This document shows positions 8,264 through 33,135 of a stretch of DNA of 35,964 nucleotides, piece by piece. A model generated the notes under the pieces. That model was given only the letters and a program-made list of their open reading frames with translations. It was not told where the DNA came from and made no database searches. The number at the start of each line of letters is the position of its first letter. The first letter of the stretch is position 1. This DNA comes from Verrucomicrobiota bacterium (GTDB lineage Bacteria > Verrucomicrobiota > Verrucomicrobiia > Limisphaerales > UBA9464). The DNA is taken from the NCBI GenBank assembly GCA_017309115.1, contig JAFLEF010000064.1, forward strand, positions 1 to 35,964, read 5' to 3'. A program made the translations under genes and the position numbers.

Positions 8264-8264
8264 G
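8252..8264 (+). repeat. Stop-codon-spanning 13-mer, copy 2
   Basis: GCAGAGAGCTGAG covers Ala-Glu-Ser-stop of the cyclase gene and continues into GAGTTGAGAGAA. It differs from the copies at 3407-3419 and 35827-35839 at a single base. Confidence 0.6.
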
Positions 8265-8365
8265 AGTTGAGAGAAGCCAAAACCGGTAAACCGGATTCGC
8301 ATTGCGTCCACAAACCCGTCGCCACTCTTAACGTGCTGGATTCCAGGATTTTTCTCTCAACTCTC
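8262..8365. repeat. 14-bp inverted repeat after the cyclase gene
   Basis: GAGAGTTGAGAGAA at 8262-8275 and its exact reverse complement TTCTCTCAACTCTC at 8352-8365 enclose 76 nt. The left arm begins inside the cyclase stop codon. The transcript could form a long-range stem that acts as a terminator or 3' stabiliser. A second pair, CCACAAACC (8308-8316) and GGTTTGTGG (8384-8392), interleaves with it. Confidence 0.65.
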
Positions 8366-8631
8366 AACTTTCAACTCTCAACCGGTTTGTGGGTAGTTGA
8401 GAGGGAAGCGATCGGGCGACGCTCGGCGGAGCCAGGCGCGAGCGGACGGGTGACGCGTGCGTCGCAACGCCCAAGCTGATCTCTCTGTACGCATACGCCT
8501 CAGCCCGAACTGAGCGCACCAGTCCGTCTCCGCCGGTAACTCAATGATTGGAGAGCCGGATGCCCAGCACCACTCCACGGACGAACGGTTCAACCGACAG
8601 GTCGCCCCACCGGACCTGGGGCGGTGGTCGC
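8264..8631. other. Intergenic spacer between cyclase and CstA-like gene
   Basis: A 368-nt spacer between convergent genes. The first 140 nt consist of interleaved inverted repeats and repeated CTCAACT/AGTTGAG units (8359-8400). One GC-rich dispersed repeat follows at 8414-8433. From about 8440 to 8631 I see no gene or clear element; the short plus-strand frame beginning at 8548 runs antisense into the CstA-like gene and has no recognisable content. Confidence 0.6.
8414..8433 (+). repeat. Dispersed GC-rich intergenic repeat, copy 4
   Basis: GGGCGACGCTCGGCGGAGCC. It matches the core of the intergenic consensus, with the CGCTC / GAGC arms able to pair. Confidence 0.55.
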
Positions 8632-10995
8632 TCAACAGCAGCGGTTGATGCCTTCGAAGCGGTGCTGGGCGGCGGCTTGATAGGCTTCGGCGCGACGTTG
8701 GCGGTCTACCTCTTCGCGCACTTCGGGGACATCAATCAACACTCGGGCGCCGCCGCCGATGGGACAGGTCTGCGCCTGTTGCCAGTGCCGGTCGACTGCA
8801 GATTCGCCTGACCATTCGCGGGCCAGGGCGAGGGTAAGGGCGGCAGTGCCTCCCAAGGTGGCGAAGGAGCTTCCTTCCAGAACGGTTCCCTCAGGAAGCC
8901 AGACGGGTTCGGTCTCCTTGAGGTCTGCCGGCCGCGAGCCTTGCAGGAGTCGCAGCCATTCCCGAACCGACAAGCCCACGATCAGCGCGCCCAGAACCAG
9001 GAACACTCCGGTGACGCCCAGATCGAGTTGGTTGTTGAACACCATGCGACGCGCGGTGCGTTCCGCTTTGGCGGCTTGTTCCCGGGCCGCTTCGGTAGGG
9101 GCAGTCGCTTGTTGTTCGACGGCGGCTTGCGCCTTTCTCTGAAAATCTTCGGCGGCCGCCCGAAAGCCAATGCGCGGGGACGGATGAAACATCTTCTGAA
9201 TGCCCGCCGTAAAGGTCACGGTCAGCAGCCAGATCAGGGGAAGCAGAGTGATCAAGGCGAGAGCCGGGGTGCGGCGCTGACGGAGCGCTGATTTCAACAG
9301 AATGGTCGTGCCCAGGCAGAGGGCGATGCCGGCCAGCAGTTGATTGGCGATGCCGAAGAGCGGCCACAGCGAGTTGATGCCGCCGAGCGGATCGCGAACG
9401 CCTTGGATCAGGAACCAGCCCCAGCCCGAGACCACGAGGACGCTGGAAAACGCATTGGCCGGCAGCGATCCGGTGTTACCCAAGTGCGGCGTCACGTGCC
9501 CTAGAAAATCCTGCAGCAGATAGCGGCCGACCCGGGTGCCGGCGTCGAGGGTCGTCAGAATGAACAACGCCTCGAACATAATCGCGAAGTGGTACCACAG
9601 GTCGAGCCAGCGTCCGTGCGTGACCTGACTAAAGATGTTCGCCATGCCGACCGCCAATGTGGCAGCGCCGCCGGTGCGTCCATAGAGCGACGATTCCCCC
9701 ACCGCGGTGGCGAGCCGGTCCATTTCTTCCGAGCTAACGTTGAATCCGGTGGCCTGAACTTTCGCGATGGTATCGGCAGCGATGGCCGCGGCGTCGGGTC
9801 CGGCGCCCTTCACGTTCATGGCTAGATACACCCCGGGATCCAACGTGCAAGCGGCCACCAGAGCCATGATCGCCACCAACGATTCCAGGCACATGGCGCC
9901 GTAGCCGATGGGTCGGGCGTAACCTTCGCGGGTGATGATTTTGGGCGTGATTCCGCTGGAGATCAGCGAGTGAAAGCCGCTGATAGCCCCACAGGCGATA
10001 GTGATGAACGCGAAAGGAAACAGTTTGCCGGCGACGACCAATCCGGAACCGTCCACGAACTTCGTGACTGCGGGCATTTTGAGGTCTGGCAGTACCAGCA
10101 GCACACCCGCAGCGAGGGCGACGATCGTGCCGAGCTTCATGAAGGTGCTGAGATAATCCCGCGGCGCCAGGAGGAGCCAGACCGGCAGCACACTGGCGGC
10201 GATCCCGTAGGCAATGATCAGCCAGGCCAGCGGTTCCGCGCGGAAGGTGAAAGCGGCGGCCCATTCCGGATGGCTGTGAACGTATTGTCCGCCCCAGACC
10301 GCCAGCAACAGCAGGATCACGCCCATGACGGATGCTTCCAGGGTTCTGCCCAAGCGAAGCCAACGCAGGTATCCGCCCATGAGCAGCGCGATGGGAATCG
10401 TGGCGCCGACCGTGAAGACGCCCCAGGGACTTTCCGCGAGCGCCTTCACCACGACCAAGGCCAGGACCGCCAGCAGGATGATCATGATGGCGAGAATGGC
10501 GATGAGCGCGACCAAACCGGTGAAGGGGTTCAGTTCGTCCCGGACCATTTGGCCGAGCGACCGTCCGTTTCGGCGCATGGAGGCGAACAGGATGATGAAG
10601 TCCTGGACGGCCCCGCCCAGCACCACTCCGATCAAAATCCAGAGCGCTCCGGGCAAATAGCCAAATTGGGCGGCGAGCACGGGTCCCACCAGTGGACCGG
10701 GACCGGAGATGGCGGCGAAGTGATGTCCGAAAACAATCCAGCGATTGGTGCGGACGAAGTCTTTGCCGTCCTCGTGCACTTCACAGGGCGTGGCTCGGCG
10801 GTCGTCGAGCATCAGCGCCCGAACGGCCAGCCACTTGGAATAAAATCGGTACCCGATGGCGTAGGTACAGAGGGCGGCGATGACCAGGTACGCCGAATTG
10901 ATCGTGTCCCCGCGATGCAGGGCCAAGGTCGCGTAGGCGAAGGCGCCCAGCAGGCTGACCCCGATCCAGACAAGTGCACGCAACAGGGATTTCAC
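8632..10995 (-). CDS. cstA: CstA-family carbon-starvation transporter
   Basis: A 787-residue polytopic membrane protein of the CstA family, whose characterised E. coli members (CstA, BtsT) take up pyruvate or peptides under nutrient limitation. The diagnostic N-terminal region is clear: YRFYSKWLA, then GHHFAAISGPGPLVGPVLA and LGGAVQDFIILFASMRRNGR. Many hydrophobic helices follow, including SSGITPKIITREG and LFGIANQLLAGIAL. It is longer than E. coli CstA (about 700) because of a charged Ala/Glu-rich segment (GFRAAAEDFQRKAQAAVEQQ) before a last helix and a hydrophilic tail of about 100 residues. The GTG at 10995 matches the family N terminus; upstream in-frame sequence overlaps the DUF2200 gene. 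No Shine-Dalgarno sequence or two-component regulator is nearby. The exact substrate cannot be read from sequence. Confidence 0.93.
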   Translation of the reverse strand: MKSLLRALVWIGVSLLGAFAYATLALHRGDTINSAYLVIAALCTYAIGYRFYSKWLAVRALMLDDRRATPCEVHEDGKDFVRTNRWIVFGHHFAAISGPGPLVGPVLAAQFGYLPGALWILIGVVLGGAVQDFIILFASMRRNGRSLGQMVRDELNPFTGLVALIAILAIMIILLAVLALVVVKALAESPWGVFTVGATIPIALLMGGYLRWLRLGRTLEASVMGVILLLLAVWGGQYVHSHPEWAAAFTFRAEPLAWLIIAYGIAASVLPVWLLLAPRDYLSTFMKLGTIVALAAGVLLVLPDLKMPAVTKFVDGSGLVVAGKLFPFAFITIACGAISGFHSLISSGITPKIITREGYARPIGYGAMCLESLVAIMALVAACTLDPGVYLAMNVKGAGPDAAAIAADTIAKVQATGFNVSSEEMDRLATAVGESSLYGRTGGAATLAVGMANIFSQVTHGRWLDLWYHFAIMFEALFILTTLDAGTRVGRYLLQDFLGHVTPHLGNTGSLPANAFSSVLVVSGWGWFLIQGVRDPLGGINSLWPLFGIANQLLAGIALCLGTTILLKSALRQRRTPALALITLLPLIWLLTVTFTAGIQKMFHPSPRIGFRAAAEDFQRKAQAAVEQQATAPTEAAREQAAKAERTARRMVFNNQLDLGVTGVFLVLGALIVGLSVREWLRLLQGSRPADLKETEPVWLPEGTVLEGSSFATLGGTAALTLALAREWSGESAVDRHWQQAQTCPIGGGARVLIDVPEVREEVDRQRRAEAYQAAAQHRFEGINRCC

Positions 10996-13797: not shown

Positions 13798-14874
13798 TTA
13801 CGCGCGGACGCCCAGACCGACCGTGTCGCGCAGGTAAGTGAGACTGCGGGCGAGTTCGCCTTCCTGCTGTTCCTTGTTATTACCGTCGAATTGAGTCACA
13901 GCCTTGCCGCGCCTCGCGATCGCTTGGAAGCGGACAAAGTCGGCGGCCGTCTTTTTGGGGAAGGCGTTCCAGAACTCGGCCTCCTGATAGGGTAGCTCCA
14001 CCGCAAATCCGCCGATCGTCTCCACGTTGACCGCTACGCCCGGGCAGAGCGCGGCGAAGCGTTGGAAATAGGTTTTCCAGTCGATGCACTGTCCCTCACC
14101 AAAGGCTGTCCACTGCACCTTGCACCCCTTCTCAGTCTCCCAGACGGCGGAATCGCGCAGACTGGTGGTGAGGGTGTAGGGGCCGAGTTTCTCGAGGGAT
14201 TCCAGGGGATCCTCCAGGGTCCACAGGGCATTGCCGGAATCCAAATTCACGCCGACGAATTCGCGTCCGGCGGCTTCCACGAGCCAGGCGAGTTCGGTGG
14301 CCGTCATGTCGCCAGCGTGGTTTTCCATGGCCACCTTAACGCCCAGATCCAGGGCGAGATTGCGGCGGGCCATTAGCACTTTGACAGTGTCTTCCATCCG
14401 GGCCTCGATGCCGCCGGGCGTGCGGCGATCATCCCGGGAACCCAGCACCACTCGAAAGACCGGGGAGCCAACCGCCTTGGAGAGTTTCAATCCCGTTGCA
14501 AGGTGTTCCTCGGCGGTGCCCCAGTCCTTTTTGAAGGACTTGGACGTCGGGCAAATGCTCCAGGAGCCGAGCAGGATCTGGATGCCCTGGTCGGCGGCAT
14601 ACCTCCGAAGTTCTTCGGCCGCGGAGATCTCGAGCGAGCCGAGCGCGGGAAGATCGGTGATGAACAGCGTGTCGAGCTTGAGCTTGGCGGCGTAGTCCAC
14701 CAGGGCCTTGCCTTTCAGACCCAGGGCGCGGACGGCGAAATTATCCATTCCCAGGCGGATCTTCTGGCCATTGGCATCCAGCAGAGCGGGAGCGGCGGCT
14801 TGGAGCGGGAGAGAGCTGACGGCCAATCCGGCGGTGGCCAGGGCGGTGGACGTGAGGAAGTCGCGGCGGTTCAT
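13798..14874 (-). CDS. Tat-exported sugar phosphate isomerase/epimerase-like TIM barrel
   Basis: A 358-residue protein with a twin-arginine signal peptide at the very start (MNRRDFLTSTALATAGLAV), so it is probably exported folded. The rest resembles xylose-isomerase-like TIM barrels (AP endonuclease 2 superfamily): FITDLPALGSLEISAAEELR, VAMENHAGD with a likely metal-binding Glu, and VGVNLDSGNAL with a likely metal-binding Asp. Such proteins act on sugars or inositols, but family alone does not fix the substrate. The ATG at 14874 places the RR motif correctly; a longer start at 14907 would add 11 residues before it. A perfect palindrome GCGTGCACGC (14880-14889) lies 5 nt upstream of the start. 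No Shine-Dalgarno sequence is visible. Confidence 0.88.
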   Translation of the reverse strand: MNRRDFLTSTALATAGLAVSSLPLQAAAPALLDANGQKIRLGMDNFAVRALGLKGKALVDYAAKLKLDTLFITDLPALGSLEISAAEELRRYAADQGIQILLGSWSICPTSKSFKKDWGTAEEHLATGLKLSKAVGSPVFRVVLGSRDDRRTPGGIEARMEDTVKVLMARRNLALDLGVKVAMENHAGDMTATELAWLVEAAGREFVGVNLDSGNALWTLEDPLESLEKLGPYTLTTSLRDSAVWETEKGCKVQWTAFGEGQCIDWKTYFQRFAALCPGVAVNVETIGGFAVELPYQEAEFWNAFPKKTAADFVRFQAIARRGKAVTQFDGNNKEQQEGELARSLTYLRDTVGLGVRA

Positions 14875-15002
14875 AACGTGCGTGCACGCAAAGCGTCGCA
14901 CTGCCACGCGTGGGGCTCAACGCGGAAAGTGAGCGAAGGAGGGAGCGATTCGGGAGGCGAACCGAGGATTGCCGGGCTCAAACAATCGTTCGGACACCGG
15001 CG

Positions 15003-15290
15003 TTAGTGTCCGGCCCGGAGCACCACTTCGCCTTGGAGAATCTTGTTGCAGCAGGTCAGGCGGAATTTCTCGGGATCCTTGTTCCACTGATCGAGCACAT
15101 CGAGTTCCTCGGGAGTCGGCTCGGTGAGGTTTTCCATGCCGCTGACCACTTCGGCGACGCAGGTGCCGCAGGAGCAGTTGAAACAGCCGGCCTCCATTTC
15201 CACGCCGGCGGCCTCGCCGGCTTCAATGAGGTTTTCGCCGTCGGGGACTTCGGCGGAGACTTGAGCGGGAAGAATCGTGATTTTGGCCAT
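15003..15290 (-). CDS. 2Fe-2S ferredoxin
   Basis: A 95-residue ferredoxin with the plant/adrenodoxin-type fold. It is a one-electron carrier that probably works in the cytoplasm. The cluster ligands are expected at C36, C41 and C44 (GCFNCSCGTC) and C80 (RLTCCNK). Two further cysteines sit next to ligands, C39 and C81, which is unusual. The acidic stretch EPTPEELDVLDQW between the ligand sets resembles the partner-binding region of adrenodoxin-type proteins. ATG at 15290 gives the standard length. It lies 96 nt after the preceding gene on the same strand. No obvious redox partner (reductase or P450) is in the window, so its client is unknown. Confidence 0.92.
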   Translation of the reverse strand: MAKITILPAQVSAEVPDGENLIEAGEAAGVEMEAGCFNCSCGTCVAEVVSGMENLTEPTPEELDVLDQWNKDPEKFRLTCCNKILQGEVVLRAGH

Positions 15291-15386
15291 GGCAAGCTGC
15301 GGAACGCCAGAACGGCGAACGCCGATAGAGTTAGCCCGCCCGCCCGTCCTGTCCACCGGTCGGTTGGTCCGCAGAGCGATTCTGAA

Positions 15387-16034
15387 TTATCGGCTGGCAG
15401 ATGCTGGGGGTTCCGGAGCGGTGACGATCTGGAACTGGCGATCGAACCATTCCCGAGGAAGTTTAGGCTCCTCCGGACCGGGCGCGGGGAACTCGAAGCG
15501 TGGGACGATGGCCGACCGGAGCCATTGATGGCGGGCCAGGGTCTCCAGTTTGCGCCGATCCCGACAAACGCCGAACAGGGGGGGGCGAAGTTCGCCCATG
15601 GCCTTGAGCTCGGTGTCATCCAAGGAAGGAAGTCCCACCAGGGACACCACGGCAATGGCTTGGGGAAACTTGCCGATTTCGCGGGCCAGCTTGCTGGACG
15701 AAAGGCCGGTGCCGGGGCCGTACTTGCCCTTCTTATCGGATTCCAGGGCCACCACCTTACCAATGCGCAGGTGGGGGGACTTGGCCAAGGTCGCGCGGAG
15801 GGCGGCGAGCTGAGTGGCCAGGATGGGCGAGGCGTCGTCGTCGAGGGTCAGCACCAGGATTTCTCCAGGTCGCTGCAGTTCCCGCAGCAGCTCGGTGGCG
15901 AGGACGCTGCCGACGGCTTCATGCAGGGGAACCGGAAAATCCGGAGCCCGGAAGTGGCGCTGCCAAGTGAACCAGACGGAGCCGATCAGGGTCAGTATCG
16001 CGACGAAGGAAATCAGGAACGGATGGCGATTCAT
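15387..16034 (-). CDS. Membrane-anchored protein of unknown function, last gene of the glycan/ABC operon
   Basis: A 215-residue protein with one N-terminal hydrophobic helix (about residues 6-24, ISFVAILTLIGSVWFTW), suggesting a signal anchor with an extracytoplasmic body. I recognise no family. The pattern LVLTLDDDASPILATQLAAL followed by RIGKVVALESDKKGKYGPG and QAIAVVSLVGLPSLDD could form an alternating alpha/beta fold, like a binding protein or a sugar-nucleotide-binding domain, but this is a guess. It starts 9 nt after the prepilin stop, so it probably belongs to the same transcript and may interact with the pilin. No Shine-Dalgarno sequence is visible. The C terminus is Pro/Ala/Ser-rich. 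Confidence 0.75.
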   Translation of the reverse strand: MNRHPFLISFVAILTLIGSVWFTWQRHFRAPDFPVPLHEAVGSVLATELLRELQRPGEILVLTLDDDASPILATQLAALRATLAKSPHLRIGKVVALESDKKGKYGPGTGLSSSKLAREIGKFPQAIAVVSLVGLPSLDDTELKAMGELRPPLFGVCRDRRKLETLARHQWLRSAIVPRFEFPAPGPEEPKLPREWFDRQFQIVTAPEPPASASR

Positions 16035-16043
16035 GGTAGCGGG

Positions 16044-16823
16044 TCAGTAGCGCCACTGGATGGCGGCGGCGTTGGTGGATTCGACGCTGGGAATCTGGAA
16101 GGTCTTGAAGCCGTCGGCGTGTCCGTCGAGGAAGGAGATGTTGGAGCGGCGGTTGCGGTCGTGGCGGGCGTGAATGCGCTCATCCTTGCCATTGTGAATC
16201 CACCAGCCGTCATAGGTGGCCGGCATCGCAGCGGCCGAGGCACTGCGTTCCAATTTGTTGAGCAGCTTGCCACCGTTGTCGCTGGGCAACCGAACGAACG
16301 GCCATTTCTTGGAATCGCCCAATCCGCCGTTCAATCCATAGGAGGTGTGGACGTAATATTTGGCGCCCGTGCTTTCGGACTTCAACGGATACAGCTTCCC
16401 GCCCTCAGGATCATCGCGTGAAACCGGATTGAAGGCGTAAACTTCGGGTCGGGAGTCCGGACATAGGAACACGGAGCGACCACCGGAAAGTTTGCCGGAC
16501 GACTCCGCCCGGGGAGCGCTCAAATATCCGCCATTCACCAGCAAGGTGCCCCAGGATTCTTCGAAGGCGGCGCCGTTGCGGACATTGTATTCGGCCGGCA
16601 CGAGGTAGTCTTGATGATCGGTGGCATACACCTGGATCCCGAGCATCGTTTGCCGCAGATTGCCCAGGCAGGCAAGGGAACGGGCCTTCTCCGAAGCGGA
16701 CGAAAGAGCCGGCAGAAGGAGCGAGGCGAGAATCGAAATGATGGCGAGGACCACCAGCAGTTCGACGAGGGTGAACCCGGAGCCGGAGGTCGTCCGGCGA
16801 ATGCGGGAGGGGGTGAGGTTCAT
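16044..16823 (-). CDS. Type II/IV pilin-like prepilin with H-X9-DG type C terminus
   Basis: A 259-residue prepilin-type protein. The processing site is clear: basic leader MNLTPSRIRRTTSGSG, then FTLVELLVVLAIISILASLL with cleavage after G16, F17 as mature first residue and E21 as Glu+5. The C-terminal body, including RRSNISFLDGHADGFK, is the large globular type common in Planctomycetes and Verrucomicrobia, where many paralogues per genome are usual; their role in secretion or surface display is mostly untested. Its ATG overlaps the upstream kinase-like gene's stop as ATGA, so translation is probably coupled. This ties a surface protein to a glycosyltransferase/exporter operon. A prepilin peptidase is not in the window. 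Confidence 0.92.
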   Translation of the reverse strand: MNLTPSRIRRTTSGSGFTLVELLVVLAIISILASLLLPALSSASEKARSLACLGNLRQTMLGIQVYATDHQDYLVPAEYNVRNGAAFEESWGTLLVNGGYLSAPRAESSGKLSGGRSVFLCPDSRPEVYAFNPVSRDDPEGGKLYPLKSESTGAKYYVHTSYGLNGGLGDSKKWPFVRLPSDNGGKLLNKLERSASAAAMPATYDGWWIHNGKDERIHARHDRNRRSNISFLDGHADGFKTFQIPSVESTNAAAIQWRY

Positions 16824-19201
16824 GGGAGTGAGAGAACGGAACAGGGGATAGAAAGGGTGGCGGTCCGGCGGTGGTGGGGAGTCCGTGAGGTTTCCCGACC
16901 GAGACGCTGTTCGCAGAGTTCCAGCAGGCGGGCGGTGAAGGGACGGCGCGCTTCGAAGCGGGTGCTCAGGCTGATGTGCCGCACCAGTGTCAGGGTGGTG
17001 TAGGCGTCCAGGAGGAATCGGCTCACGGAGGGCGCCAGCTCCTGGTAACGCTGAAGAAAGGCTTCGGCGAGGGACTCGAGGTGGCACCGTTGCGAGGGTT
17101 CGCGCAGGGCCAGTTCCAGCAGGTGCCCGGCAAAGTTTCCAACATCGAGGGCGGGATTCCCGGCGCATAGCAGGTCGAAATCGACGAGCCAGAGGTGCTC
17201 TCCTTCGATCAAAACTTGGTCATGATAAAAATCCCGATGAACGGGAGCTGACGGAGCCGCGGGCAAGCTGGCTACGAGGCGTTGGCATTCGTCCCAGATC
17301 CAGGTCAGACGGGGCCGCCAGTCCGGGCGCTGGTCGGCGACTTCGCGCAGATGGATCTCCAGGATCTCCAGTTCGTCTCTGGAGGTGTGGGTGCGTCGAA
17401 GCGGCAGAGTTTGTCGATGGAGTTTGTGAAGAGCTTCGGCCGTGCGGCGAATCGCGGGATGGGCGAGCGGGGTGTTGAGAACTTCCGAGAGCGCGGTGCC
17501 GGGAACCAACTCCTGAAGCCACAGCCCCAGACGGGGAACGGTTCCCAGAACCGCCGGGATGGAACTGCCGTCGGCACTGTGCCGTTGGAACGCGCCCTGA
17601 CCGAGCCGTTGGAGCAGTTCAAGATTGGAATCATCCAGTCCGCGCCGACGGAGTTTGCCGAGAACCCGGACGACTGGACCGTCCCCGGACCGGTGAGCCA
17701 CGCGCAGGCGGTATTCAATGAGCGCCCGTCGACCGGTCTTGTGTCGCCGCAGAGCGGCCGACTCCAGGAACAGTCCGCCGGTCGCTCCGGGTGCATCGGT
17801 TTGGGCCAGTGCCTCGGTGAGCAGCGGCGCCATCGAAACGCAGCACAAGGCGGTGTCGAGATGCGGCAGGGCCGGGTCGGAAACAGGACACCTCGGTGCG
17901 GTGTTCCAACGCGACGGCGAGGCTAGCGGGCAGCGTGAGCCAAGAATTTCCAGACCCGTGTGCGTGAGTTGAGGCCAGTCCGATTCTCCGCTGCGGAAGA
18001 ACTCAGGCAGGCGATGGAACAAGGCGATGGAGCGGTGAAACTCCACGTCCTGGAGTTTCAGGGCCGGCCGTCGACGAGCATATCCGTGGAGCAATTCGTC
18101 GCGGACTTCCTCCACTCGCCGCGAGGACAGCCGGCCGCGGATGACCTCGAGATCCAAGGCCGCCAGGAAGGAGCCCAGATCTACGGCGGCAGCTCCAAGT
18201 CGGGATTCGTCGAGGTCTAGCAGAGCGACGGTGCCGTGCGGGGAGAGCACTACCTGAGAGGCCGAGAAGTCCCCGTGCAACCGGACCAGCGGGACCGAAC
18301 AATGCGGTGGGGTTCGGCGGAGGACGTCGCACAACTCATGGAGGCGGGATTGTGTCCGAGGCAGGAGGTGCCCGAGGAGTTGGCGGGTGGAGGCGAGGGT
18401 CGACATTGGGTCGGAGGCCGACGGGTCCAGCGGGCCAGCTCCCGTTTGCGCGTGGAACTCCCCCAGGGCCTGACCCACGAGGTCCCAGCAGGTGTCGTTC
18501 GTACGGGTGTTGAGATCGGTGGCCAGCGGGGATCCCTCCTGCCAGTCGGACCAGATCGCCTGGTGGGAGCGGGACAGGAGCGACGGTGCCGCCACCCGGA
18601 GGATCTCTCCCGAACAGGGAGCCGGCAGTTGCGGCTGAGCGGCCGCAAAGGTTTCAGCAGAATGCAGGCGAAGGACGCCCTTTCGGCCGGAGCCCAGATC
18701 CAAGGCGGCGACCCAACGGCGTTCCGGTTTGTAGGCCAGCGTTCGCCACGAAGCTGATTCGGGAACGCTCCAGTCAGGCCGCTTGCGCGAAAGGAATCCC
18801 GTGCGCCAGGCGGAGTCGGTCCACTGAGTCAGGGAGGGCAGCTTGTTATCCTGGGGAAACAGACAGAATTCCATCTGAGCCTGGGGCAACAGCAGCCGAC
18901 CTGGGCCGAGCGGACTGCTTCCTACCGATCGCTGCGCGGACTTGGTGAGCTTGCCGGGGGCGTCGGCGGCGTGGGCTTTGGCGTACATCGGCCAATCCCG
19001 ACCGGCGACCGTCAGGGTGTAGGCGGCCAGGCAGTTTCGGCCGGGCTTGTAACGCAGATATCGAAGCTGACACGCCTGCAGTCGAGCCGAGCCGGACAGT
19101 GTTCGGAGCGCGGCAAGCAGGGCGGGCGAATCGAACAGAAGTCCCAGGCCGGGGAGTCCGGCATCGCGGCGCACCAAGTCGAGTTCAGCGGGCGAACGCA
19201 T
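16820..19201 (-). CDS. Tandem two-module aminoglycoside phosphotransferase-like protein
   Basis: A 793-residue protein containing two kinase-fold (APH/choline-kinase-like) modules. The first has its catalytic loop at H309-G-D311-F-S-A-S-Q316 and a metal-binding LLDLDE (D329, D331). The second has H655-R-D657-F-Y-H-D-Q662 and LVDFDLL (D674, D676), followed by NPALDVGNFAGHL. In both loops a Gln takes the place of the Asn usual in HxDxxxxN, a variant also found in other APH-like proteins. The upstream half of each module lacks an obvious canonical nucleotide-binding lysine that I can place with confidence. Its start overlaps the ABC exporter gene by 17 nt and its stop overlaps the prepilin start. 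Context suggests phosphorylation of a glycan or lipid intermediate, not antibiotic resistance. Confidence 0.85.
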   Translation of the reverse strand: MRSPAELDLVRRDAGLPGLGLLFDSPALLAALRTLSGSARLQACQLRYLRYKPGRNCLAAYTLTVAGRDWPMYAKAHAADAPGKLTKSAQRSVGSSPLGPGRLLLPQAQMEFCLFPQDNKLPSLTQWTDSAWRTGFLSRKRPDWSVPESASWRTLAYKPERRWVAALDLGSGRKGVLRLHSAETFAAAQPQLPAPCSGEILRVAAPSLLSRSHQAIWSDWQEGSPLATDLNTRTNDTCWDLVGQALGEFHAQTGAGPLDPSASDPMSTLASTRQLLGHLLPRTQSRLHELCDVLRRTPPHCSVPLVRLHGDFSASQVVLSPHGTVALLDLDESRLGAAAVDLGSFLAALDLEVIRGRLSSRRVEEVRDELLHGYARRRPALKLQDVEFHRSIALFHRLPEFFRSGESDWPQLTHTGLEILGSRCPLASPSRWNTAPRCPVSDPALPHLDTALCCVSMAPLLTEALAQTDAPGATGGLFLESAALRRHKTGRRALIEYRLRVAHRSGDGPVVRVLGKLRRRGLDDSNLELLQRLGQGAFQRHSADGSSIPAVLGTVPRLGLWLQELVPGTALSEVLNTPLAHPAIRRTAEALHKLHRQTLPLRRTHTSRDELEILEIHLREVADQRPDWRPRLTWIWDECQRLVASLPAAPSAPVHRDFYHDQVLIEGEHLWLVDFDLLCAGNPALDVGNFAGHLLELALREPSQRCHLESLAEAFLQRYQELAPSVSRFLLDAYTTLTLVRHISLSTRFEARRPFTARLLELCEQRLGRETSRTPHHRRTATLSIPCSVLSLP

Positions 19202-21002
19202 GGGCCTCCTCGTTCGCGGGGTTGGAGAGTTCGGTGTTCTCCGAATTGGCGGCGACCAGATCCGGTTTCGGCACGGCGATCAGCCGACCGTGATGCAGGG
19301 TGAACACAAAATCGGCGAGTACCGCGTGCCGGGGATTGTGGGTGACCCAGAGCGTAGTGCGGCCGCGCGCCAGATTGCGGAGGGCGTCTACCACCGCCTG
19401 CTCGTTGGCGGGGTCCAGTCCGGTGGTGGGTTCGTCGAAGAGCAGCAGCCGCGTATTGCGAAGCGCGGCACGGGCGATGGCGATGCGTTGGCGCTGACCT
19501 TGGGACAGTGTGGCGCCGCGTTCGCCCACGGGTGTGTCGTAGCCTTCGGGAAAGGCCTGGATGAAGTCGTCGGCCTGGGCGAGTCGGGCGGCGGCCTCCA
19601 CCTCGGAGCGGGTCGCGTCTGGTCGGCCCAGCGCGATGTTGTCGTGGAGAGTGCCGGTGAAGAGCACGTTCTCCTGAAGGACCAGACCGCACTGACGGCG
19701 CAGCGACTCCACGGAGTAATCGCGCAAATCGTGACCGGCGAAGACGATGCGCCCGGCGGTGGGTTCATGCAGCCGCAGCAGCAGACTCAGCAGCGTGGAT
19801 TTGCCGCTGCCGGAGGGGCCCAGCAGAGCGGCGGTGTGGCCCGCGGGAATAACGAAGGAGACATCCTGCAACACCGGTTGTCCCGGCACATGGCTGAACT
19901 GAACCCCTTCGCCGCGCAGTTCGCTGGCGACGTCGGGCAGAGGCCGGGCGTTGGGCTGATCGGCGATGGCCGGGGGCAATTCCAGCAATTCGAGAACCCG
20001 GGCGCCAGCGGCTCCAGCCTTGCTCAACCGCGAGGTGAACTTCGCGAAATCCTGGATGGGGCGGAACGCCGCCTTGAGGTACGCGATGAAGACCAGCAGT
20101 TCGCCCGGGCTGAGTTCGCCCCGCAGCACCAGGCGTGCGCCCTGCCACAAGACCAGCGCGGTGGAGGCGGCGATCAGCACGTCAACGGAACGTTCGAGTC
20201 GGGCAGCAAGACGTTTGCCCTTCACGTCCTGATGCAACGTCCGGTCGTTCTCCTGATGGAAGGAACCAAAGAACGCTTCACTCACAGAGAGCGCCTGGAT
20301 GACCTTCATCCCGGTGAAAGATTCGGCGGCGGTGGCGGCCATGGCGCCTTCGCGGCGTCGTTGCTGACGGGCCACGGTTTGCAGTTCGCGACCCAGGGTA
20401 ACGGTGCGAAGCCAGAACAGCGGGAGCAGCGCGAGGGCCAGCGCGGCAAGTTGCCACTGCATCCAGAACATGACGCTGATCATGCCGACCAGAATCAGGG
20501 CGCGGGCGATCAGCGGGAGCAGCGCGGTGACGAGGACGTCCTGCAGCAGTCCGACGTCGCCCATCACCCGGACCACGAGATCGCCGCTGCGGGCACGGGT
20601 GTGAAAGGACAGGGGGAGCCGGTGAAGATGTCGGAAGAGTCGGCCCCGAACGCCGGAAAGAACGCGGCTGCCGGCCACGGCGAAGGCGATGGTGCTGGCG
20701 TAGGCCGCGAGGGACCGCAGGCCGGTGACGGCCACCAGCGCGAGGGCCGCCAGGGCGAGGAGGGTCAGCGGCGGGACGTCCGTCCAGCGGGACGGGGCCG
20801 ACACCCCGCCGGATCGGACGGTAAGGACATGATCGAACACCCATTGGATCGGCCAGGGTTCGAGCAATCGAAGTCCGACTTCGGCGAACAACGCGGCCAG
20901 GCCCAAACCCAGGCGGCCGCGCTGGGTGCGCAGTTCCGGCCGGAACTCCCGGAGCAGATTGCGGAGACCAACGGAACGTTCGGCGGTTTTGGAGGACTTC
21001 AT
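19185..21002 (-). CDS. ABC exporter, fused membrane and ATPase domains (MsbA-like)
   Basis: A 605-residue half-transporter of the type I exporter class, expected to work as a homodimer in the inner membrane. Six hydrophobic segments lie in residues 30-315, and the ATPase domain occupies about 360-585. Walker A is GPSGSGKS at 395-402, the Q-loop is LVLQENVLF, the signature is LSQGQ at 499-503, Walker B is LLLFDEP at 519-525 and the switch His is H555. MsbA-like exporters flip lipids, lipid-linked sugars or peptides. Its ATG lies one nucleotide after the stop of the GT4 gene upstream and its 3' end overlaps the kinase-like gene. The setting between glycosyltransferases and a phosphotransferase favours a glycolipid or glycan substrate. 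Confidence 0.93.
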   Translation of the reverse strand: MKSSKTAERSVGLRNLLREFRPELRTQRGRLGLGLAALFAEVGLRLLEPWPIQWVFDHVLTVRSGGVSAPSRWTDVPPLTLLALAALALVAVTGLRSLAAYASTIAFAVAGSRVLSGVRGRLFRHLHRLPLSFHTRARSGDLVVRVMGDVGLLQDVLVTALLPLIARALILVGMISVMFWMQWQLAALALALLPLFWLRTVTLGRELQTVARQQRRREGAMAATAAESFTGMKVIQALSVSEAFFGSFHQENDRTLHQDVKGKRLAARLERSVDVLIAASTALVLWQGARLVLRGELSPGELLVFIAYLKAAFRPIQDFAKFTSRLSKAGAAGARVLELLELPPAIADQPNARPLPDVASELRGEGVQFSHVPGQPVLQDVSFVIPAGHTAALLGPSGSGKSTLLSLLLRLHEPTAGRIVFAGHDLRDYSVESLRRQCGLVLQENVLFTGTLHDNIALGRPDATRSEVEAAARLAQADDFIQAFPEGYDTPVGERGATLSQGQRQRIAIARAALRNTRLLLFDEPTTGLDPANEQAVVDALRNLARGRTTLWVTHNPRHAVLADFVFTLHHGRLIAVPKPDLVAANSENTELSNPANEEAHAFAR

Positions 21003-21003
21003 G

Positions 21004-22173
21004 TCAGGCGAGGACCGCGGTGGATTGGGCGAGGTGGAGAATTCGGCGGGCCACCTGATCCCAGGTGTGGGAACGTTGGATGGTGGCGCGACCGGCGGTG
21101 CCCAGGCGGTGGCGGAGGTCGGGATCGCGCTGCAGTCGGATCAGTTGATGAGCGAGATCAGCGGGGTCCCCGGGTTCGCAGAGTAGTCCGTTCTCATCGT
21201 GCTGGATGAGTTTTGCGATCTGACCCAGGCGGCTGGCCACGGTGGGTTTTCCGGCGGCCATGTACTCGTACACCTTGAGCGGTGAAAAATAGAACTGCGC
21301 GCGCGGCGGATACGGAGCGACGGCGACATCCATCGACTCCAGCAGCCCAGGAATTTCTTCGGGCGGCACCGCGCCAGTGAATCGGGTAGCCGGGCCGAGG
21401 CTGTGATGGGCGAGTTGAGCTTCCAGCGCGGCACGTTCGGGACCATCTCCGACGATCAGCAGACGGACCTGGGGCGTGCGGGAATGAATTCGGGCGAACG
21501 CTTCCACCAGTACGGGAAGTCCGTGCCAGGGCTTGAGCGTGCCGATGAAGCCAATGGTGAATGGTTCACCGGAAGGGCGAGTTCGCAGGGAAACGGCAAA
21601 GCGCTCCGGATTGACGCCGTTCTCGATGACTTCGATGGCGGTGCCGGGTTGGGTGTTTTCGCGCAGCCAGCTTCCAATCTCGGCCGAGACCGGCAGGAGA
21701 ACCGAGGCGGCATGGAAGACGGTTTGCGCGCAGTCTTCGGCGGCCGCCCGATCGAGCAATCCGCGGTGGGCGGCCTGTTCTTCCACCAGCGGGGCGTTGA
21801 CCTCCAGCAATCCAGGGATCTCCCGGGCGCGGGCAAACTGCTGAGCCGCGACGCTCCACAGGGAGTACCGCTCGTAGATGGCGTCAAAGGTTCCCGCCCC
21901 GGCCAGACTGGACCACAAGGCGGCGTTGGCTTCCCGGGCGGCCCGTTCGCGTTGGGCCAGATCGGATTCGCGCGGACAGGGTAGGGGCCGGACTGGCAGA
22001 TCCTGCAGATCCGCCGGCGGCGTACCGTCGGTTCGGGCGGCGAACAAGGTGACGTGCGTTCCCCGACGGCGCAGGGCGCGAATCACTTCCTGAACGTGGA
22101 TTGAACAACCCTTGCGGCCGAAGACCGGGACTCCGGGGTCGGCGCAGACGTAGGCGAGGCGCAGGGGTTTCAT
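21004..22173 (-). CDS. GT4-family glycosyltransferase (second of two)
   Basis: A 389-residue retaining GT-B glycosyltransferase. The N-terminal domain opens with LRLAYVCADPGVPVFGRKGC, the acceptor-side Rossmann fold. The C-terminal donor domain shows IGFIGTLKPWHGLPVLVEAF, LLIVGDGPERAALE and YFSPLKVYEYMAAGKPTVAS, in which the Glu of KVYEYMAAGKP is the conserved donor-binding residue. No signal peptide or membrane helix is visible, so it is cytoplasmic. The ATG at 22173 overlaps the preceding stop codon by one base (TGATG). Sugar donor and acceptor are unknown. It precedes the ABC exporter gene. Confidence 0.92.
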   Translation of the reverse strand: MKPLRLAYVCADPGVPVFGRKGCSIHVQEVIRALRRRGTHVTLFAARTDGTPPADLQDLPVRPLPCPRESDLAQRERAAREANAALWSSLAGAGTFDAIYERYSLWSVAAQQFARAREIPGLLEVNAPLVEEQAAHRGLLDRAAAEDCAQTVFHAASVLLPVSAEIGSWLRENTQPGTAIEVIENGVNPERFAVSLRTRPSGEPFTIGFIGTLKPWHGLPVLVEAFARIHSRTPQVRLLIVGDGPERAALEAQLAHHSLGPATRFTGAVPPEEIPGLLESMDVAVAPYPPRAQFYFSPLKVYEYMAAGKPTVASRLGQIAKLIQHDENGLLCEPGDPADLAHQLIRLQRDPDLRHRLGTAGRATIQRSHTWDQVARRILHLAQSTAVLA

Positions 22174-23435
22174 CAGGCGAGAACGGGTTCGAGTTGGGGT
22201 TGAAGGAGGGACTCCACCGCACCGGCGTCGGCGTGGTGATGGGCCTGTGCGAACCAGCGCCACTGCTGCTCGGTGTTCTGGTCCGCGTCGAACTCGTGTT
22301 CGATCAAGTCCCGCGCCTGACGTGACAACTCCACGCGGAGATCCGCGTCGTCGAGGAGTCTGGCTAGGGCGGAAGCTAGTTCTTCAGAGTCATGCTGGGG
22401 AACTTGGAGGCCGGTACGTTCGTGCCGGACGATCTCCGGGATTCCCGTGACGTCGGTGGCGACACAGGGAGTGCCCAGGGCCATAGCTTCGAGCAGGACG
22501 GTGGGCAGACCGTCGGCATTGCCGTCGGCGCCGACCACGCAGGGCGCGGCGAAGACTGCAGCGGAACGGACCCGCTCGATCACCTCCGACTGGGGGAGCG
22601 GACCGGTGAGGCGAACCTGGTGGTTCAAGCCCAATTCGCGAATCTGGCGTTGGAGTGCGGACTCCAGTTCACCGCCGCCAATGAGTTCGCAGGTGAAGGG
22701 AACGCGTTGCTGAGCCAATCGGGCACAGGCCTCCAGGAGAATGCCAAAGCCCTTCTTCTCGATCAGTCGACCCACGGCCACGATGTGTCGCGAACGCTCA
22801 CGAGGAGAGGTGTAGTTGAAGCGCGACAGATCCAGGCCGTTGTAGAGTCGGCGAACTTGGCTGGCGGCCGGTCCGAACTTGTCGCGCAGGAAGCGGACAT
22901 TGAAGTCGCTGACGGTGATGACCCGCGCCGCGCCGGCCAGTTTACGCTCGAGATCCGCGTCGCTGGCAGACTCGTGAAAGATGTCCTTGGCGTGGGCGGT
23001 AAAGGTGTAGGGGATTTGCGCAAATCGGGCAGCGGCGTGGGCGACCGAAGTCGCGGTGGTGGCGAAGTGGGCGTGCAGAAGGTGAATTCCCCGTTCCCGG
23101 ACCAAGCGCGCGAGCCGGGCGGCCTGGAACACTTCCCGGGCTTCCGTTCCCCGGAGCGTGGCCAGGGTTCGCCAGAAGTCGGGAAGCACCGTGGCGGTTC
23201 GCAGCAGTTCCGACCACAGGTCCGGTGCGCGCAATCCGTCGGCCGTCAGGTATGTGACCGGGGCGCGGACGCGGGACAGCGTGCTTTGGAAATGCGTGTC
23301 GTTGGGCGGATAGAGGGAGAAGATTTCCACGGATCGACCCGCGGCTTCGTGCGCGAGGATTTCGTTCACGATGAAGGTTTCGGAGAAGCGGGGATAACGC
23401 TTCACGACGTAGGCGATGTGCAGCGGAGTAGTCAT
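22173..23435 (-). CDS. GT4-family glycosyltransferase (first of two)
   Basis: A 420-residue GT-B glycosyltransferase of the GT4 family. MTTPLHIAYVVKRYPRFSET and FIVNEILAHE are typical of exopolysaccharide and colanic-acid-type transferases (WcaL/AmsK-like). The donor domain has IVAVGRLIEKKGFGILLEA, GGELESALQRQIRELGL and ADGLPTVLLEAMALGTP, which carries the conserved Glu, followed by TGIPEIV. The protein is cytoplasmic. Its ATG overlaps the stop of the MurG-like gene as ATGA. The open frame extends about 760 nt upstream but that extension is Arg/Pro-rich antisense-like sequence across the neighbouring gene, so the internal ATG at 23435 is the real start. Donor and acceptor are unknown. Confidence 0.92.
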   Translation of the reverse strand: MTTPLHIAYVVKRYPRFSETFIVNEILAHEAAGRSVEIFSLYPPNDTHFQSTLSRVRAPVTYLTADGLRAPDLWSELLRTATVLPDFWRTLATLRGTEAREVFQAARLARLVRERGIHLLHAHFATTATSVAHAAARFAQIPYTFTAHAKDIFHESASDADLERKLAGAARVITVSDFNVRFLRDKFGPAASQVRRLYNGLDLSRFNYTSPRERSRHIVAVGRLIEKKGFGILLEACARLAQQRVPFTCELIGGGELESALQRQIRELGLNHQVRLTGPLPQSEVIERVRSAAVFAAPCVVGADGNADGLPTVLLEAMALGTPCVATDVTGIPEIVRHERTGLQVPQHDSEELASALARLLDDADLRVELSRQARDLIEHEFDADQNTEQQWRWFAQAHHHADAGAVESLLQPQLEPVLA

Positions 23436-24631
23436 GGGACGGTTTGGAAAAGCGGGGTCACGGGGCGGGAACGCGGGGCGTCCGCGAGGTCCATCAGATG
23501 ACGGGCCGCCGTAGCCGCGCCGGTGAAGTCCGCCTGGGCGCGAATGCGGCTTCGGAGGGCGGATCGGGAGGACGCCAGGGTCTGGCGAATCTCCTCGTTC
23601 AATCTCGCCGGCGTCAGCTGCTCCGGCGGGAGGACCCGCAGCAGGCCGCGTTGAGCCAGGGATTCGGCGCGGACCCATTGCTCCCGGCGCGGATGCGTGC
23701 GGGGCACGCAAATCACGCGGGCACCCGCGGCGAGGCACTGGGCAATGGTGTTGTAACCGCCCATGCAAACCACGACATCGGCGGTGGCGAACCACTTCTG
23801 CAGACCCGGAATGAACGTGTGCAGTTCGATGCCGTGGAGGTCCGCCAGATCTTTGAGCCGCCGGGATTCCTTCGCCGAGACCAGCGGTCCGGTGACGGCG
23901 ACGCGTTCCCAGGGTTCGTTGACGGATCGCGTGAGGAACGCCTCCAGCAATTCGGCGCCGTCTTCGCCTCCGCCAACCGTAGCGAGGACCAGGGGTTTTC
24001 CGGAAGGGCGGGTGGCTGCGGGCCGGGGCGACTGGCGGGACGGGGCATCGACCACGTAACCGCAGTAGTGCGTTCGTTCCAGGAGTGAGGCGGGGAAGCC
24101 ATATTCCGAAGCGGTGTCGAACAGCGACTGATGACCGTAAACGAGAACCGCGTCGTAGTGTTCCGGAATGGCGTGCGGCAGATCGTGGGGTTCCCATTCC
24201 TGCCGCACCGTCGCGGGATCATCGAGAATGTCGCGCAAGCCCAACACCGCCCGATGTCCCAGGGCGCGCAGCGATCCCAGTGCGGGACGCAGTTCGCCGC
24301 CGGCTCCGAAGGGATGTTTGTCCACCAGCAGGACATCCGGTTGGAACGATTCCACCGTACTTTGCAGCAGTCGGGAGCGCAGCTGGCGAACGGTGTCGGA
24401 GGAAACACCGAGGTAGCGGGAACCGTAGGATTCGTTGGCCAGTTTGCGCAGACCGGGAAGTTTCAGAATCTCCACCCGGTCGGGAACTCCCAGTCGCGTC
24501 ACGTCGTCGGAACCGCTGGCGACGAGGACGGAGGCTTGGGGAGCGAGTTGGGTGAGAGCGCGGGCAATCGCGAGGTTGCGGCAGGTGTGGCCCAGGCCGA
24601 AACCGTCGTGGGAGTAAAACAGGAAGCGCAT
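23432..24631 (-). CDS. MurG/GT28-like glycosyltransferase
   Basis: A 399-residue GT-B protein, the first gene of the coupled operon. The N terminus MRFLFYSHDGFGLGHTCRN has the glycine-rich GLGHT loop seen in MurG-like and 'predicted glycosyltransferase' (COG4671-type) proteins. The C-terminal donor site includes LATVGGGEDGAELLEAF, CMGGYNTIAQCLAAGARVI and VPRTHPRREQWVRAESL, equivalent to the UDP-sugar-binding region of GT28 enzymes. The ATG at 24631 fits the family N terminus. No Shine-Dalgarno sequence is visible. Function in glycan assembly follows from context; the sugar is unknown. Confidence 0.88.
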   Translation of the reverse strand: MRFLFYSHDGFGLGHTCRNLAIARALTQLAPQASVLVASGSDDVTRLGVPDRVEILKLPGLRKLANESYGSRYLGVSSDTVRQLRSRLLQSTVESFQPDVLLVDKHPFGAGGELRPALGSLRALGHRAVLGLRDILDDPATVRQEWEPHDLPHAIPEHYDAVLVYGHQSLFDTASEYGFPASLLERTHYCGYVVDAPSRQSPRPAATRPSGKPLVLATVGGGEDGAELLEAFLTRSVNEPWERVAVTGPLVSAKESRRLKDLADLHGIELHTFIPGLQKWFATADVVVCMGGYNTIAQCLAAGARVICVPRTHPRREQWVRAESLAQRGLLRVLPPEQLTPARLNEEIRQTLASSRSALRSRIRAQADFTGAATAARHLMDLADAPRSRPVTPLFQTVP

Positions 24632-24939
24632 GGGGGAACTCGCAGGGGATGCGAACCTCCGCTTCAGCTCTGGGGTGATCCGGGGGCCGGATCTTTTGTC
24701 AGCGGAGAGGATCGTCACTCCTCACCGTTTGGCAGCCGACATGCCAGACTCCAAAAAGTTCCGAAAGTGTGACTTGGAAGGACAATTTAGCGCGTTCCCG
24801 TCGATGAACTGGTCCGGTCACGCGGCGCACTGGTCCGCTAATGAATTAGAACCGAGGGACACTGGTCCGCGAACTCACCAAAGGCACATCGCGGCCGGAC
24901 TGTTGCGGCGTTAGGCTGGGGAAATATCCCCAGGGGTAC
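24632..24939. other. Upstream region of the glycan/ABC operon
   Basis: A 308-nt spacer between DUF1501 and the first glycosyltransferase gene, both on the minus strand. It probably holds the operon promoter, but I cannot pick out a convincing -35/-10 pair. The only clear structure is three copies of ACTGGTCCG between 24808 and 24869. No gene is supported here. Confidence 0.55.
24808..24869. promoter_or_regulatory. Three direct repeats of ACTGGTCCG
   Basis: Exact 9-mers start at 24808, 24829 and 24861, that is 21 and 32 nt apart (about two and three helical turns). They lie 177-238 nt upstream of the MurG-like gene. Phased identical repeats of this kind are typical of an activator or repressor array. 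No regulator gene is adjacent. Confidence 0.45.
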
Positions 24940-26301
24940 TCAGCCGACCAGTTCCTTCATCGGCTGCACGCCGGCATCCACGAGGAACTGCGGACGTCCG
25001 GTCAGATCGGTAACGGTGACCTTGTTCACGTCCAAACCCAACGCGTGATAGAGCGTGGCGTGGACTTCGCCGAAAGACACGGGACGTTCGCTGGCTTCGC
25101 CGCCGAGTCGGTCGGTGGCGCCGATCACCTGACCGTGCTTCATTCCGCCGCCCGCGAGCAGGGCGCAGCTGACTCGTGGCCAATGGTCTCTCCCGCCATC
25201 CTTGTTGATCGTAGGCGTCCGTCCGAATTCGCCCCAAACGACCACGCTGACATCCTTGTCGAGTCCCCGCTGATGCAAGTCCTGAATCAACGCGCTCAAT
25301 CCCTGGTCCAACAGTGGCAGATCCTGTCGGAGCGCGCCGAAATTATCGCCGTGATGATCCCAGCGGCTGAACGCGAGAGTGACACAACGGGCGCCGGCTT
25401 CGACCAATCGCCGGGCGACCAGGAAGTGTTCCATCAACTTGGGTCCACCATCGTCGCGATTTCGCGGGTCACCCTTGCCGTAGGCTTCAATGATCTTGGG
25501 ATCCTCCCGCTTGAAATCGAGGGCCTCGACCATCTTGCTCGACGTGAGAATTCCGAAGGCCTGCTGATTGTAGGCGTCGAGTCCTTCCATGTTCCGGCTG
25601 CCATCCACTTCGCGGCGGAACTGGTCCAGACTGGTCAGGAGAGAACGGCGATCCGCCAGACGGTCCAGCGTGATGCCATTGAGGATCATGTCGTCTTTGC
25701 CACCGCCCTTGTTGATCTCGAAGGGCGCGCAGGCCGCTCCGAGAAATCCCGCGACCCCGTTGTCGGACCAAGGAACGTGACCCATCTTGGGCGCTAGTCC
25801 GACAAAGGCTGGAATGGACGGATCGCCAGCGCCCTGAGTCTTGCTCAGGAACGAGCCCATTGAGGGCCAGCCTCCGGGTGGCTGATTGCGATTGAGGCGG
25901 CCGGTGTAGCATTGGAACGCCTCGTGCCGATCCTCCATGCCACTCATGGAGCGAATGATCGTGTACTTGTCGGCGAGGGCAGCCAGACGAGGAAGGTGCT
26001 CGCAAATCTGGATTCCCGGAACATTGGTCGCGATCGGACGGAATTCTCCCCGCACTTCGGCGGGGGCGTCCTGCTTCAGGTCAAACATGTCCTGATGCGA
26101 GGGCCCCCCGGGCAGGAAGATCATGATGACGGCCTTGTGCTGGGTTCCGGCGCTGCGAATTCCGGCGGCGGCTTCGGCGCGGAGCACGTCGGGTAGAGCC
26201 AATCCGCCGAGGCCAAGCGCCCCAATTCGCAGGAAATTGCGCCGGGAAACACCGTCGCAGAATCCCGAGCGATTGGAGCGGGGTCCAAGGAGAGTCAGCA
26301 T
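24940..26301 (-). CDS. DUF1501 family protein, Tat-exported
   Basis: A 453-residue DUF1501 protein, a sulfatase/alkaline-phosphatase-like family abundant in Planctomycetes and Verrucomicrobia. The twin-arginine signal is SRRNFLRIGALGLGGLALP at residues 19-37. Family motifs include IMIFLPGGPSHQDMFDLK, SMSGMEDRHEAFQCYTGRL and VVVWGEFGRTPTINKDGGRD. Most DUF1501 genes sit beside a DUF1549/DUF1553 (cytochrome-containing) gene; here the upstream neighbour is DUF429 and the downstream one a glycosyltransferase, so it stands alone. ATG at 26301 follows from the signal peptide; a longer in-frame start exists 171 nt upstream but lacks meaning. A GCACGTGC palindrome (26303-26310) abuts the start. Catalytic activity is not established for the family. 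Confidence 0.92.
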   Translation of the reverse strand: MLTLLGPRSNRSGFCDGVSRRNFLRIGALGLGGLALPDVLRAEAAAGIRSAGTQHKAVIMIFLPGGPSHQDMFDLKQDAPAEVRGEFRPIATNVPGIQICEHLPRLAALADKYTIIRSMSGMEDRHEAFQCYTGRLNRNQPPGGWPSMGSFLSKTQGAGDPSIPAFVGLAPKMGHVPWSDNGVAGFLGAACAPFEINKGGGKDDMILNGITLDRLADRRSLLTSLDQFRREVDGSRNMEGLDAYNQQAFGILTSSKMVEALDFKREDPKIIEAYGKGDPRNRDDGGPKLMEHFLVARRLVEAGARCVTLAFSRWDHHGDNFGALRQDLPLLDQGLSALIQDLHQRGLDKDVSVVVWGEFGRTPTINKDGGRDHWPRVSCALLAGGGMKHGQVIGATDRLGGEASERPVSFGEVHATLYHALGLDVNKVTVTDLTGRPQFLVDAGVQPMKELVG

Positions 26302-32348: not shown

Positions 32349-32354
32349 GGGGCG

Positions 32355-33092: not shown

Positions 33093-33135
33093 GGAAATTT
33101 GGGGAGTAGAGCAGTAGGGACGTGGAGGGGAAATA

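Follow-up and report, generated by a model that had tools for sequence, protein, structure and literature searches.

The subject of this report is a run of seven protein-coding genes on the minus strand (positions 24631 to 15387) of contig JAFLEF010000064.1, from assembly GCA_017309115.1 of a Verrucomicrobiota bacterium of the order Limisphaerales; the whole stretch of DNA that was analysed, 35,964 nucleotides (nt) in length, is referred to as the window. In the order of the operon, the run comprises a MurG-like glycosyltransferase (GT) with a GT28 C-terminal domain (23432..24631; 399 amino acids, aa), two GTs of family GT4, designated GT4a (22173..23435; 420 aa) and GT4b (21004..22173; 389 aa), a fused ABC exporter related to MsbA (19185..21002; 605 aa), a tandem APH-fold kinase (16820..19201; 793 aa), a prepilin (16044..16823; 259 aa) and a membrane-anchored protein which, as the product of the last gene, we call LAST (15387..16034; 215 aa). 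A first-pass annotation had described this arrangement from the letters alone, and both the single-strand run and its junctions were reproduced exactly: -4 (ATGA) between the MurG-like and GT4a genes, -1 (TGATG) between GT4a and GT4b, +1, -17, -4 (ATGA) and +9 nt. The longest of the overlaps joins the end of the exporter gene to the start of the kinase gene at 19185..19201. A scan of positions 14850-25000 gave 0 sigma-70-type promoter matches (mean of 0.9 in shuffled sequences), a result that says little for this phylum.

Pfam searches assigned the GT domains given above and placed PF00664 (ABC_membrane, residues 47-314) and PF00005 (ABC_tran, residues 378-527) in one chain of the exporter, i.e., a fused transmembrane domain (TMD) and nucleotide-binding domain (NBD). 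The protein scored 336.7 bits against the MsbA equivalog TIGR02203 (cut-off 602) and 116.6 bits against the PglK equivalog NF050066 (cut-off 1000), and is assigned to neither. The neighboring protein had been read as a double kinase, which the family search substantiated: PF01636 (APH) was matched in two stretches at 85.9 bits (cut-off 23.2), and both of its catalytic loops, HGDFSASQ and HRDFYHDQ, are intact, with a DLD/DFD motif after each. The catalytic loop of APH proteins conforms to HxDxxxxN/Q, and both loops end in Gln at the final position. These motifs were kept in all eight proteins compared, which range from Verrucomicrobiota to E. coli. By our reading, a third N-lobe-like stretch may lie ahead of both loops, at residues ~46-61 (RYLRYKPGRNC).

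The prepilin bears a class III signal (GFTLVE), as evidenced by matches to PF07963 (N_methyl; E 1.6e-06) and TIGR02532 (29.2 bits, cut-off 16.3). Its C-terminal half is conserved and carries an H-X11-DG motif; the H-X9-DG prepilin family TIGR04294 was not matched at E<=0.1, and the score against PF07596 (DUF1559) was 18.9 bits, below the cut-off of 23.3. A structural model displayed an N-terminal helix at residues 19-69, partly of low confidence. LAST of the window has no match in Pfam. A model built with 15 LAST sequences (mean pLDDT 85.5) displayed one N-terminal helix resembling a transmembrane (TM) segment, followed by a Rossmann-like alpha/beta domain of alternating strands and helices. 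Peripla_BP_4 (PF13407) was weakly matched by 5 of the 15 members at E<=1 (best E 0.00046), and the best profile match in the PDB was also a periplasmic binding protein, again weak (E 0.044). With moderate confidence, we interpret LAST as one putative lobe of a periplasmic binding protein that would be tethered to the inner membrane.

To what extent these genes belong together was judged in four sets of genomes: 39 relatives (38 besides the own genome), a class sample of 286, 321 genomes of the order and a phylum sample of 387. The kinase sequence had no match in the 38 other relatives. Two full-length homologs, of 45% and 34% identity, were found in the class sample, where six more matches outside the own genome covered the query in part and had E values of 1e-6 to 1e-4 only. 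A kinase profile, scored on at most three candidates per genome in the order set and at most two in the phylum sample, matched 16 of the 321 genomes of the order and, in the phylum sample, the own genome only. Because the kinase searches of the relatives, class and phylum samples were nearly empty, the system has a scattered distribution which, in the genomes searched, does not reach beyond this order. Within it, all seven genes occur in the same order in genomes G134 (43-71% identity to the window) and G404 (genomes and loci are given by our G and L numbers), the orthologs in these two showing identities of 63-65% (MurG-like), 68-71% (GT4a), 56-60% (GT4b) and 63-64% (exporter). G259 possesses five of the genes before its contig ends, and both it and G325 agree with the window as far as their contigs reach.

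A LAST profile matched 115 of the 321 genomes at E<=1e-8, and 19 of these, from 11 families, scored above 150 bits; we refer to the 19 as carriers. An adjacent prepilin of the window's subfamily was present in 19 of 19, and a gene of the glycan core lay on the LAST contig in 15. The contigs of the other four end on the upstream side: in G360, G361 and G475 the contig stops inside an upstream gene, c5 (described below), with unrelated genes downstream of LAST, and the 3.4-kb contig of G375 begins in the prepilin. Three of these four contig-limited assemblies hold a MurG-like gene elsewhere, and none was found in G361, which is 78% complete. When the pattern of the prepilin C-terminal half was scanned against 84,980 genomes, 14 loci were retrieved, all within the same 19 carriers; twelve are titled as members of Verrucomicrobiota and two only as 'bacterium'.

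The first-pass annotation had regarded the prepilin within a coupled operon as unusual, which taken alone carries less weight than it seems: 111 prepilin N-terminal motifs were detected at E<=0.01 in the window genome (7.5 Mb). By a rough estimate, prepilins would make up ~1-2% of the genes, and about one in ten operons of seven genes would hold one. With so many motifs, one prepilin in one operon has no meaning by itself, and conservation alone can provide it. The same set in the same order in relatives provides this conservation, on which a chance neighborhood was rejected. The comparison of neighborhoods, named beforehand as the refuting test, likewise did not reveal the prepilin to be an independent insertion, and the claim that the genes form a unit stands.

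The gene called c5 is the usual eighth member. It encodes a protein of ~500-690 aa with glycine-rich repeats. Each of five members searched matched the T5SS/PEP-CTERM-associated repeat TIGR04393 at E<=1, with a best E of 4.9e-05 and two scores exceeding the cut-off, and six members gave no Pfam family at E<=0.01; the protein is probably a secreted beta-solenoid. Fifteen of the 19 carriers have c5 within the locus, and G134 and G259 have it on a different contig, whereas six genomes without the system (G369, G326, G529, G390, G001 and G004) gave only partial matches, the best being 2.6e-26 in G390. It is often on the opposite strand, hence not in the same transcript. The C-terminal ~75 aa of c5 (profile positions ~478-552) recur many times per genome on other open reading frames (ORFs) in the order, and could represent a surface-sorting domain.

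Several architectures were observed among the carriers, on the basis of gene calls from a home-made codon-usage caller with which some start sites are uncertain. Type A is the order of the window (MurG-GT4a-GT4b-ABC-double kinase-prepilin-LAST), shared by G134, G404, G325 and, up to the end of its contig, G259, with c5 upstream in G404 and after MurG in G325, whose contigs split in the kinase. Type B reads MurG-ABC-GT4-GT4/kinase (fused or split)-c5 (reversed)-prepilin-LAST and occurs in G366, G368, G391 and G528; a variant, type B' (G464 and G380), additionally includes an APH gene and a GT4 and, in one case, a methyltransferase. Type C is MurG-GT4a-GT4b-ABC-GT4 with c5 and prepilin-LAST adjoining and no kinase between ABC and c5 (G363, G215 and G364, the contig of the latter ending in GT4a). 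The block of prepilin, LAST and c5 lies on the strand opposite the core, still beside it, in two loci (L057 and L059; G363 and G364), and in G358 MurG and then GT4a directly follow prepilin-LAST. In loci that reach far enough, the constant members are the MurG-like GT, a GT4, the exporter, the prepilin and LAST. Of the seven genes named in the first-pass annotation, those for prepilin and LAST are thus retained more steadily than that for the kinase, which is variable: its profile matches 13 of the 19 carriers, and we rejected it as a defining member of the system. Three further genomes matched by the kinase profile, G319, G321 and G370, were not counted, since they appear to hold only remote relatives of the core; their match is weak, their loci contain neither the prepilin of the system nor LAST, the ABC protein there is 38-39% identical and, in G319 and G321, the MurG-like gene ~33%.

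Inheritance was also compared between the genes. Across 14 carriers, pairwise distances, computed from the best BLAST segment per gene, correlated between prepilin and ABC (r 0.77), prepilin and LAST (r 0.89) and LAST and ABC (r 0.84), with 0 of 1000 permutations as high. The correlation of MurG and GT4b was weak (r 0.25, 55 of 1000 permutations, 12 genomes), it being noted that the two GT4 matches of type B are perhaps not orthologs. Presence and absence in congeners is more telling than these correlations: six of seven tested carriers have the MurG-like gene, which was found in none of nine genomes without the system, all congeners of carriers (G001-G004 for the window genome, G369 for G134, G529 for G528, G390 for G391, and G326 and G327 for G259).

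Outside the order, the front of the operon was encountered on plasmids. The kinase matched 17 of 72,556 plasmid records (10 from Escherichia, 4 from Candidatus Manganitrophus, 2 from Paracoccus and 1 from Pseudorhodobacter), and in 11 of the 17 the match spanned 80% or more of the kinase; the MurG-like gene was matched by ten Escherichia records. Five plasmid stretches, including one Escherichia record, were examined in detail. In Paracoccus aestuarii p296221 and Pseudorhodobacter turbinis the order of the five front genes is unchanged and the kinase is fused, and the 17-nt overlap of ABC and kinase genes recurs in both (L064 and L066), as it does in L011, L033 and L012. E. coli p1RM9088 (NZ_CP042296.1; L062, 3623-13801) reads GT28-GT4-GT4-ABC-APH-APH, the kinase being split into two genes and the overlap being 11 nt, with genes for an alginate export family protein and a nucleotide sugar dehydrogenase downstream of the core. 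Identities to the window for MurG, GT4a, GT4b, ABC and kinase are 31, 45, 42, 43 and 27+32% in E. coli, and 35, 52, 45, 51 and 30% in Paracoccus. A Ruegeria stretch was rejected as an instance of the core, since it has MurG-like and GT4 genes without a kinase or ABC neighbor of this type, and so was a Manganitrophus stretch, a different and larger arrangement sharing parts only. Neither the prepilin nor LAST nor c5 had a match at E<=1e-3 in any of the five stretches. The core without these three on plasmids supports glycan synthesis and export as its predicted function, and suggests that prepilin and LAST were added in the Verrucomicrobiota line to a widespread glycan cassette. We found no description of this five-gene plasmid cassette in the open-licence literature.

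The closest tie of the prepilin is to LAST, and this pairing is the most valuable new fact of the analysis. Among LAST paralogs outside the glycan system, a prepilin on the same strand lies directly upstream in 44 of 53 evaluable cases, as judged with a home-made motif in a range of -150 to +400 nt. The count derives from 56 LAST matches in 55 loci (44 with a prepilin, 9 without and 3 at contig edges), which were hand-picked across genomes from the listed profile matches with a leaning to higher scores and at least one contig-edge match skipped, and are hence not a random sample. Two of the nine cases lacking such a prepilin (L112 and L128) have a divergent one ~210-220 nt away; in two loci, L107 (G324) and L115 (G323), the LAST paralog stands beside a 295-aa protein instead. 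On account of this frequency, the prepilin-LAST pair looks like a general, reusable module of which the window operon would be one use. The window genome contains a second pair (L110; G000:C74:18000-33806), with the LAST paralog at 7316-8047 and the prepilin at 8013-8801; genes for a CotH-kinase protein and NAGPA phosphodiester glycosidases form an operon-like run with it, and L117 is similar. The idea that the neighbors of the pair are secreted cargo was dropped as too weak: a crude hydropathy rule marked 11 of 20 same-strand neighbors as secreted, compared with 51 of 170 other genes, with one gene counted twice and some of the neighbors being prepilins themselves.

The surroundings of the operon look unrelated to it. 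Upstream is a DUF1501 protein; downstream are a TIM-barrel protein, an endonuclease/phosphatase-family protein, an ORF with no Pfam match and CstA. At positions 29590-34347 of the window, a separate run resembling a tripartite efflux system encodes two MacB/FtsX-type permeases, an ABC ATPase and an HlyD-type protein. On the strand opposite the operon are a CotH-kinase protein (1423-3006, +) and a protein with HAMP and adenylate/guanylate cyclase domains (6362-8263, +).

Taken together, we read the locus as a putative operon for making and exporting a glycan, in which prepilin-LAST would serve as a pair for surface delivery, and place the probability of this at about 0.5. What is observed are the genes and how they are coupled, the recurrence of the set, the pairing of prepilin with LAST and the intact kinase motifs; the sugar, the acceptor of the phosphate and the transport step are predictions. 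As judged from their families, the MurG-like GT and the two GT4 enzymes would act in the cytoplasm to build a short chain of sugars on a carrier. Where present, the tandem kinase, of which both active sites look intact, may then phosphorylate sugar residues of the chain, and the MsbA-related exporter would flip the product across the inner membrane. The prepilin would be processed and built into a pseudopilus by type II secretion or type IV pilus (T2SS/T4P) machinery of the host, for which 11 matches to the T2SSE-family ATPase (PF00437), five nearly full-length, were found in the genome. Prepilin and LAST, the latter with its inner-membrane anchor and outer alpha/beta domain, might finally carry the product, or c5 bearing it, to the outside. 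That a glycan is made inside, phosphorylated and exported, as the first-pass annotation had proposed, still explains the five front genes best, and the two proteins adjoining the E. coli core agree with it.

A number of observations weigh against this interpretation. Six of the 19 carriers, the three of type C among them, have no kinase match, which implies that phosphorylation is not essential to the system, and in G358 and G360 the kinase is on a contig other than that of c5 and the pair, with neither after it. The operon contains no detected polymerase, ligase or outer-membrane exporter, and three alginate-export-family proteins elsewhere in the window genome are unlinked to it. The window genome yielded only short C-terminal or N-terminal matches to c5, which is apparently missing. 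LAST shows weak similarity to binding proteins, and no Pfam family matches the copy in the window. Beyond its N-terminal helix, the prepilin was modeled poorly (mean pLDDT 38.9, the C-terminal domain mostly <50), and shared ancestry alone could produce the distance correlations.

Other explanations place the same genes in a different relation. Should c5 be the center of the system, the operon would glycosylate it and prepilin-LAST would secrete it, the glycan being a modification of a protein and not a free polymer or glycolipid. The association of c5 with 17 of the carriers, in the locus or on another contig, its T5SS/PEP-CTERM-associated repeats and its weaker, partial matches in genomes devoid of the system all fit such an arrangement; however, the window genome shows no c5 ortholog despite an otherwise full operon, and a gene so often on the opposite strand belongs to a different transcript. 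We consider this explanation rather unlikely. The prepilin might, instead, be the acceptor of the (phospho)glycan, with the operon decorating its own pilin, a proposal of the first-pass annotation. Its linkage to glycan genes, which adjoin it in 15 of 15 evaluable carriers, and its conservation, at identities of 67 and 56% against 45 and 34% for the kinase of the same genomes, speak in favor of this. Specific support was not obtained: a scan confined to 27 ORFs of the window, and not extended to the remaining genome, revealed no oligosaccharyltransferase or Wzy/Wzy_C-type domain, the core stands in Pseudomonadota with no pilin nearby, and the usual partner of this class of prepilin elsewhere is LAST and not a GT. 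Decoration of the pilin is, in our estimate, distinctly unlikely. Lastly, a generic pair could have landed in a glycan operon and been kept by shared transcription only. The abundance of prepilin motifs in the genome and the occurrence of prepilin-LAST in many unrelated contexts would allow for this, but the pair has been retained across 11 families despite changes in order and strand, and the nine congeners without the system also lack the MurG-like gene. We regard such hitchhiking as very improbable, and return to glycan export with a delivery pair as our preferred interpretation.

A wider and more doubtful extension, which we put forward tentatively, is that prepilin-LAST constitutes a Limisphaerales-type module for surface delivery, in which LAST would pick a periplasmic cargo and hand it to its own pseudopilin, one cargo per prepilin. 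In the present operon the module would be wired to an ABC-flipped phospho-glycan and the beta-solenoid protein c5, amounting to an undescribed form of pseudopilus-dependent glycan or glycoprotein export. If true, pilus-type machines would be linked to ABC-dependent glycan export outside cyanobacteria.

The first-pass annotation knew of no described system with this exact set, and nothing relevant was found in the open-licence literature to contradict it. Flippases of the MsbA/PglK type resemble the exporter of the window in being fused TMD-NBD proteins beside GTs; they differ in that the latter falls far below both equivalog cut-offs and that no PglL/PglB-like transferase was found in the operon. 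The E. coli and Paracoccus plasmid clusters are like the window in gene order and unlike it in having no prepilin, LAST or c5, and the finding hence also points to a five-gene glycan cassette common to E. coli and Rhodobacterales plasmids. Among described systems, the one that comes closest in placing pilins among polysaccharide genes is the hps cluster for hormogonium polysaccharide of filamentous cyanobacteria. According to the part of the account available, polysaccharide and minor pilin genes share one cluster there, mutation of pilB or pilQ in Nostoc punctiforme abolishes polysaccharide production, and hps is described as being of the Wzx/Wzy type with its export route unsettled (PMC12288463). 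Where hps, as far as that excerpt goes, combines Wzx/Wzy with minor pilins, the operon of the window has a fused ABC exporter, an APH kinase, one prepilin and LAST, and no Wzx flippase or Wzy polymerase domain was present among the 27 ORFs scanned.

To our knowledge, there is no accepted explanation for the dozens to >100 pilin-like or DUF1559 genes per genome in Verrucomicrobiota and Planctomycetes. The 111 motifs of the window genome have counterparts in the accessible portions of two accounts: Verruconatronum alginivorum has 67 homologs of one PulG-like pseudopilin, with a pseudopilin gene over-expressed on alginate (PMC13274419), and Planctopirus has 68 DUF1559 paralogs (PMC10632474). Those portions name no partner protein, whereas in the order studied here LAST is a frequent partner and one subtype of the pair is tied to a glycan-export operon, which together offer a testable lead on why such genomes maintain about a hundred pilin-like genes.

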